A DNA stretch of 64,000 nucleotides from Desulfomicrobium escambiense DSM 10707 (lineage in GTDB: Bacteria > Desulfobacterota > Desulfovibrionia > Desulfovibrionales > Desulfomicrobiaceae). The DNA lies in NCBI RefSeq assembly GCF_000428825.1, contig NZ_AUAR01000022.1:1-64000 (forward strand), in the 5' to 3' direction. This document shows, in pieces, positions 52,102 through 54,833 of the stretch (its first letter is position 1; the number at the start of each line of letters is the position of its first letter). The translations under genes and the position numbers were made by a program. The notes under the pieces are model-generated. The model had not been told where the DNA came from. It ran no database searches and saw nothing but the letters and a program-made list of their open reading frames with translations.

Positions 52102-52290
52102 ATGAGCGACAGATCTCAGGAAAACTCGCCGAGCCATGCCGTGCTGCGCGGCGTCATCGTCGGCGGCTCCATCGGCATGATCGCCAGCTGGTTCGGCTAC
52201 GAGCCGGTCAAGGCCTTCTTCATGGGCATCGTCTGCGGCATCTTCGCCGCCTTCACCAGAATCATGGCTGACAGGTTGCGCAAGAAATAA
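52102..52290 (+). CDS. Small membrane protein
   Basis: This 62-aa product has two short hydrophobic segments (AVLRGVIVGGSIGMIASWFG and AFFMGIVCGIFAAFTRIMA) and a basic C-terminus RLRKK. The family is not recognised. It follows the PPDK-like gene closely and probably shares its transcript. Confidence 0.65.
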   Translation: MSDRSQENSPSHAVLRGVIVGGSIGMIASWFGYEPVKAFFMGIVCGIFAAFTRIMADRLRKK

Positions 52291-52293
52291 TCC

Positions 52294-52321
52294 TTGACTT
52301 TTTCAACTGCAGGACTATTAC
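52294..52321 (+). promoter_or_regulatory. Sigma-70-type promoter of an orphan transcript
   Basis: TTGACT (5 of 6 consensus) is followed after 16 bp by TATTAC (4 of 6). It begins four bases after the stop of the small membrane protein gene and points into a region without a gene. Predicted start of transcription is near 52328. Confidence 0.5.
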
Positions 52322-52327
52322 TTCAAA

Positions 52328-52750
52328 TCAAGAACCACCGCATGCGGACTGAACAGGTTCTTGAATCCGTGGCGATGTCTTCAAGGAAACTGACAACAAC
52401 ATCTCTTCGACAGAGGCGTGTTGCAAGGTAACTTGGAAAAATCCTCGAAACACAGGTGTGTAGGCAGTCAACACAATCAGGGAACATCTTTCCGAATCGA
52501 AAATCGAGGCGCGTTGGTTGGAAACCGTGAACCAGTAATGTGGTCATGGCGCGTTGGAAGGAAACCCCGAAGTGAACCAGGAAACAGACTTTTGAGGCGT
52601 TTATTCCGGTAAATCCGTACAGGAGTACTCGTGGCGTCGGCCCCAATCCGGCGCAAAAACGGTTCACAAGCATCACATCGCATCTGGTTTAACGACATTC
52701 CGGTTGATCGGGGGCGGAAGAAAAGACTTCTTCCGCCCCTCTCTTTTTTC
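52328..52750 (+). ncRNA. Candidate noncoding RNA of about 420 nt
   Basis: The region is bounded by the promoter at 52294 and the terminator at 52711-52750 and has no credible reading frame. Its predicted 5-prime end folds at once: TCAAGAACC (52328-52336) pairs with GGTTCTTGA (52356-52364), enclosing the palindrome CCGCATGCGG. Further in, a GCGCGTTGG...GGAAACC...GTGAACCAG block occurs twice (about 52510 and 52549). Its base composition is less GC-rich than the flanks. It does not show the conserved cores of tmRNA, RNase P RNA or 6S RNA that I can check by eye. Confidence 0.45.
52711..52750 (+). terminator. Rho-independent terminator of the orphan transcript
   Basis: A perfect 12-bp stem (52711-52722 with 52728-52739) and 5-nt loop are followed by TCTCTTTTTTC on the plus strand. 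No plus-strand gene ends just before it (the nearest stop is at 52290). The following stretch up to 52933 is the presumed promoter region of the zinc-ribbon gene and holds nothing else recognisable. Confidence 0.85.
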
Positions 52751-54563: not shown

Positions 54564-54833
54564 ATGGCAGTAGATTTCAGTAATGCCGTCAAGACCGACG
54601 AAGGCGTTCAGGTTAACGGCGTTGTCATGCAACAGATTGTGGAACAGTGCGAAGGCTGCGAGCGGATCAAGGAATTCGAGGGCGGCAAGTACTGCGGCAG
54701 CTACCCCCAGCCCGCCGTGAAGTGGAGACTGGGCAGCTGCAATTTCGCTACCCACACCAAGTCCGCGCCCGCCAAGGGCAAGGCCAAGGTCAACCCCCTC
54801 AAGGCTTCCAAGCGCGCTGCCAAAGGCCGCTAG
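54564..54833 (+). CDS. PxxKW-family cysteine-rich protein
   Basis: This 89-aa protein has four central cysteines (CEGCERIKEF, YCGSYPQPAVKWRLGSC) around the PAVKW signature of the PxxKW family, which is found in Desulfovibrionales and relatives. The cysteine set suggests metal binding. The C-terminal tail is Lys/Ala-rich. Function unknown. GGAGG lies just upstream and a strong terminator follows. Confidence 0.85.
   Translation: MAVDFSNAVKTDEGVQVNGVVMQQIVEQCEGCERIKEFEGGKYCGSYPQPAVKWRLGSCNFATHTKSAPAKGKAKVNPLKASKRAAKGR

Follow-up and report, generated by a model that had tools for sequence, protein, structure and literature searches.

Bacterial RNAs of the CsrB/CsrC and RsmX-Y-Z type are intergenic RNAs of a few hundred nucleotides that carry many copies of one short site; the site of CsrA is GGA or ANGGA. 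Repetition is also found in the Listeria LhrC and the rhizobial "cuckoo" RNAs, whose multi-copy C-rich seeds are directed against Shine-Dalgarno sites, and in the ToxI RNAs of type III toxin-antitoxin systems, in which repeated units follow a promoter and precede a terminator. The usual partner of antisense sRNAs is Hfq.

Here we describe a locus of Desulfomicrobium escambiense, at positions 52294-52749 of a 64,000-nucleotide stretch of genomic DNA (the window), that is almost certainly a real noncoding RNA gene, standing alone between two ordinary genes. As in the CsrB/CsrC and RsmX-Y-Z systems, the RNA is a stand-alone intergenic unit of a few hundred nucleotides, bounded by a promoter and a terminator, in which one short site is repeated. 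It differs from them in that the site is GGCGYGTTGG, GGA is not enriched and Rfam gives no match. With the LhrC and "cuckoo" RNAs it shares the repetition of one short motif within the RNA, but the motif is G-rich and no Hfq was found in the family. The arrangement of repeated units between promoter and terminator recalls ToxI, whereas the units are not near-identical and no toxin gene adjoins them. A further sulfate-reducer RNA, Dv_sRNA2 of Desulfovibrio vulgaris, is reported to be a target of the response regulator DVU0679 and to adjoin the gene of this regulator (PMC3333781). Compared by description only, both RNAs are without assigned function, but the regulator-adjacent arrangement is not present here.

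Little has been mapped of the post-transcriptional control of sulfate-reducing bacteria, and in the family studied here Hfq is not detectable. A conserved RNA in which one site is clearly repeated would provide a direct handle on the RNA-binding protein that runs riboregulation there, and three genomes of the genus that are without the RNA offer ready comparisons.

Anatomy of the RNA gene

The predicted promoter (52294-52321, forward strand) lies directly 3' of the stop codon of a gene for a 62-aa protein. Direct reading gives a -35 box TTGACT at 52294-52299, a 16-nt spacer and a -10 box TATTAC at 52316-52321, as the original prediction had it. A strict promoter scan of the locus called no promoter because TATTAC lacks the T at position 6, such that a single genome is insufficient to prove the promoter of the RNA. 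In an alignment of the close members from ten species, with pairwise identities down to 64%, the two hexamers are invariant at 10 of 12 positions (-35 6/6, -10 4/6) compared to 1 of 16 positions in the spacer. This conservation lifts the predicted TTGACT-16-TATTAC promoter above chance. TTGAC is present in all 13 members of the RNA.

At the other end, terminator prediction called an intrinsic terminator (52710-52749, forward strand), formed by a stem of 13 pairs at 52710-52740 and a T-run reaching to 52749. A strong terminator hairpin is found in 13/13 members with letters that differ between them. The very strong terminator initially proposed holds up as well. Promoter and terminator together place the ends of a predicted noncoding RNA of approximately 420 nt (52328-52749, forward strand), which is probably transcribed.

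The RNA would start with a 5' hairpin (52328-52364, forward strand), in which TCAAGAACC (52328-52336) pairs with GGTTCTTGA (52356-52364) and encloses the palindrome CCGCATGCGG (52338-52347), confirming the 9-bp stem described before. The stem comprises 9-10 bp in four members and 5-8 bp in the remaining ones. Compared with shuffled sequences, the stem taken by itself is clearly significant only in the four members with 9-10 bp (p 0.002 or less); one further member is at p 0.04, and eight are non-significant. In favour of the stem, the diverged members L040 and L041 re-form it with GAGCC replacing GAACC. Over the whole RNA, 4 of the 75 pairs predicted in the ten-species consensus show a double change. 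Since the base pairs in the repeat region are mostly invariant, we claim no particular fold there. The folding energy of the RNA is mildly unusual (z -1.93). In the ten-species consensus the 5' palindrome also pairs at a distance with CGCAUCUGG; by eye this pairing is not retained in the diverged members, and we do not claim it.

The absence of a credible reading frame from these approximately 420 bp was borne out. Among close members the six reading frames are indistinguishable from one another, and none of them stays conserved once the diverged members are compared; the one weak match (E 0.001) concerned one pair. Over the whole window Rfam 15, which includes RNase P, tmRNA, SRP and 6S RNA, gave no match at gathering score, and the best match at the RNA locus (E 0.61) was far under the cut-off and at chance level. 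ARAGORN found neither a tRNA nor a tmRNA. A housekeeping RNA was therefore rejected, in line with the failure of the first reading to recognise one. With neither an Rfam family nor a conserved or degraded coding gene found, the noncoding-RNA interpretation is supported, and by its sequence the RNA is new to Rfam 15, outside every catalogued family. A limited search of the open-licence literature, including PMC11124144 and PMC3333781, yielded no description of a Desulfomicrobium sRNA.

Occurrence in Desulfomicrobium and its family

BLAST matches to the RNA were obtained in 10 of 61 genomes, all within Desulfomicrobium. When a diverged query was run against the 22 genomes of the family, the same ten genomes were matched. 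The gene of the 62-aa protein (52102-52290, forward strand), which is the upstream neighbour and lies outside the RNA, is found in 22/22 family genomes and served as a synteny anchor, so that the downstream flank could be read also in genomes without a BLAST match. The protein has no Pfam match; by eye it likely contains membrane segments, and it is conserved across the 22 genomes.

Directly 3' of this same gene the RNA is present in 13 of the 16 Desulfomicrobium genomes, counting that of the window: ten RNAs are recognisable by BLAST and three are strongly diverged. The latter (in G005, G004 and G011) were found by flank reading and have the same promoter, a CAAGARCC start, motif copies and a terminator. 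Flank reading found no RNA at the site behind the 62-aa gene in the other three genomes (G009, G012 and G006). In G009 (locus L036) the promoter -35 box, CTTGACTT, is left at the former promoter site without the RNA body, as though the RNA had been deleted.

In the sister genera, neither BLAST nor a sequence model found the RNA in any of six genomes. As the downstream flank was read in four of them (all except G018 and G016), this absence rests mainly on the BLAST and model searches. Each genome that has the RNA carries a single copy according to BLAST and to model R1, a sequence model built from the 13 members which recovers the same 13/16 genus genomes by construction; a second BLAST match in G001 is a stretch of 29 nt that aligned with the query's terminator end. 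Across the genus, promoter, internal motifs and terminator are kept at one syntenic site, which adds the conservation that the original prediction had called for.

The repeated motif and a candidate relative

Within the RNA the motif GGCGYGTTGG occurs four times on the forward strand, at distances of approximately 40, 53 and 40 nt, arranged as two modules of approximately 70 nt. In the window the copies read GAGGCGTGTTGC (52413-52424, 9/12 columns invariant in the ten-species alignment), CAGGTGTGTAGG (52453-52464, 10/12), GAGGCGCGTTGG (52506-52517, 10/12) and TGGCGCGTTGGAAGGAAAC (52547-52565, 16/19). A weaker fifth copy, GGCGTTTATTCCGG (52596-52609, 12/14), was recognised by eye. The internal block previously noted as duplicated is indeed repeated, with GGCGCGTTGG at 52508-52535 and 52548-52580, but it is part of this four- to five-fold pattern rather than a mere duplication. 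An internal repeat of at least four copies in two modules, and a gene that is a feature of the genus, go beyond what had been proposed.

Conservation is unevenly spread along the transcript. Overall 209 of 419 columns are invariant, with 57 of 69 in the five motif stretches and 19 of 63 in the linker 52610-52672. In the ten close members the motif copies start 38-41, 51-53 and 40-41 nt apart; in L041 these distances are 44, 45 and 35 nt. L037 and L040 have just two or three recognisable copies. Most of the non-motif sequence is lost in the diverged members, in which GGCGYGTTGG survives. The shorter form GCGYGTYG, picked after inspecting the sequences, occurs one to four times in each of the 13 members compared to 0.0-0.1 expected from dinucleotide shuffles (p 0.026 or less, 13/13). 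GGWAA shows enrichment in 10/10 close members (p 0.062 or less) and in one of the three diverged ones. Outside the repeats, the linear stretch TCACATCGCATCTGGTT (52673-52689, forward strand, 14/17 columns invariant) is conserved to the same degree.

The modular organisation was probed with a second model, R2, which covers copies 1 and 2, i.e. module 1 (52411-52481, forward strand, its source and match), and includes a sequence from genome G338. R2 gave a second match on module 2 (copies 3 and 4) that was near full length in 7 of 13 members and partial in five further ones, one of them weak (E 0.28); in the genome of the window the second match had E 0.023. These second matches show that the module of approximately 70 nt is duplicated.

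Over 348 genomes of the order, R1 returned two borderline matches outside the genus. The match in G187 lies inside a coding frame and was rejected as a relative. The G338 match is intergenic, with two motif copies spaced by 45 nt between a TTGACT promoter and a strong terminator, and is possibly a one-module relative of the Desulfomicrobium RNA. Since a search of 348 genomes should yield approximately 1.7 matches of such an E-value by chance, we consider it a good lead rather than proof. The unit, at about 1375-1575 of L110, is approximately 165 nt long and belongs to another family of the order. An order-wide pattern search matched seven genus genomes and seven others; of the latter matches, four fall within long coding frames and those of L108 and L109 are by eye without a terminator, which leaves G338 as the only intergenic unit with promoter and terminator. 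With the G338 RNA as query, BLAST gave matches with an E-value of 0.01 or lower in 32 of 346 genomes, G338 itself included, and none of the four non-self matches inspected had a promoter-to-terminator anatomy. Among the weaker R2 matches outside the genus, 13 were inspected, of which 12 are under long frames and none forms a promoter-to-terminator unit; nine of the 13 were placed reliably, whereas the other four are cut by contig ends and were probably misplaced. A phylum-wide search of 395 genomes returned one weak match besides that of the window's own genome, just 5' of a gene start, which looks like a ribosome-binding site.

Possible modes of action

We tentatively favour, at somewhat less than an even chance, that the RNA is a multi-site decoy which titrates an RNA-binding partner. 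The four- or five-fold repetition of the motif suggests an RNA that could soak up several copies of such a partner. This reading is preferred because number and spacing of the motifs are kept while the rest drifts, and because the modules can be duplicated; the lack of a detected Hfq and the one-module candidate in G338 were also counted in its favour. The RNA would act in trans, with each motif copy as a putative binding site for the partner, most likely a protein. Several sites per transcript would titrate the partner, such that the level of the RNA would set how much free partner is available for acting on mRNAs, and the ends of the RNA would be shielded by its 5' hairpin and its terminator. 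The decoy would work like CsrB/RsmZ but outside that family, since the repeated site differs from the GGA site of CsrA. Several points stand against it: the motif was picked with the sequences in view, L037 and L040 retain no more than two or three recognisable copies, copies 3 and 4 can pair together and may therefore be structural rather than binding sites, and a decoy of repeats gives no account of the equally conserved 52673-52689. A more speculative extension, which we regard as unlikely at present, is a new class of modular decoys in Hfq-less sulfate reducers. Their duplicable modules, with two sites each (GGCGYGUUGG ... GGCGYGUNGG), would target an RNA-binding protein, with one module in G338, of another Desulfovibrionales family, and two in Desulfomicrobium.

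The main rival is an antisense RNA with several seeds, independent of Hfq, in which C-rich mRNA segments would be bound through the G-rich copies of GGCGYGUUGG or through the conserved stretch UCACAUCGCAUCUGG. It is possible, if doubtful. Highly conserved linear stretches of seed length, C/U variation within the motif that would be tolerable opposite G in a target, and an own terminator with U-tail are what such an RNA would show. However, Hfq (Pfam PF17209) was found in 0/22 family genomes, with E. coli and B. subtilis as positive controls, and the same result speaks against an Hfq-dependent antisense sRNA despite the U-tailed intrinsic terminator. A coarse search of the window's genome for exact 10-mers gave 31 occurrences, compared to 18 for a reversed control pattern. 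Of the 31, two fall within the RNA and 29 outside it; the 27 inspected of those outside lie mostly in long frames and do not visibly gather at gene starts according to coarse ORF calls. No exact 12-nt complement of 52673-52689 recurs elsewhere in the genus, and outside the RNA a complement of this 3' stretch is found in two genomes only, with one occurrence each. A CsrB/RsmZ-type sponge for CsrA is very unlikely. CsrA is encoded in 16/16 genus genomes, and AAGGA or GGAAA strings adjoin several motif copies, but the three genomes lacking the RNA encode CsrA just as the others do. GGA is at chance level in the 13 members (p 0.09-0.59), ANGGA likewise (p 0.078-1.0), and GGT or AGA replaces GGA at aligned positions.

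A structural or scaffold RNA whose motif copies fold together, such as a 6S-like polymerase mimic, a ribozyme-like RNA or the core of an RNP, is improbable, if less so than a CsrA sponge. For the close members most fold predictions pair copy 3 with copy 4, and dimerisation through the palindromic loop of the 5' hairpin is conceivable, but there is no rod-like fold, no Rfam match and little covariation (4/75 pairs), and the folding energy is only slightly lowered. Least probable of all is a 5' leader, attenuator or relic of the gene that follows, or else a protein gene in decay. The terminator ends approximately 185 nt upstream of a gene for a zinc-ribbon-like protein. Yet this very strong terminator closes the RNA unit, the downstream gene is retained without the RNA in L036, L038 and L039, the RNA of L041 adjoins a different gene, and no frame is conserved as a degraded gene would require. 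A cis-acting leader or riboswitch was rejected for lack of a conserved link to the downstream gene. A type III antitoxin was discarded as well, as the gene downstream matches no Pfam family and is kept in genomes lacking the RNA, and the repeats are not near-identical. The tail of the motif may resemble the 3'-terminal part of certain CRISPR repeats; a CRISPR array was dismissed, the repeat units being different from each other and the intervening stretches conserved across species. Further downstream, at 54564-54833, the window encodes a DUF6811 protein (Pfam PF20657).
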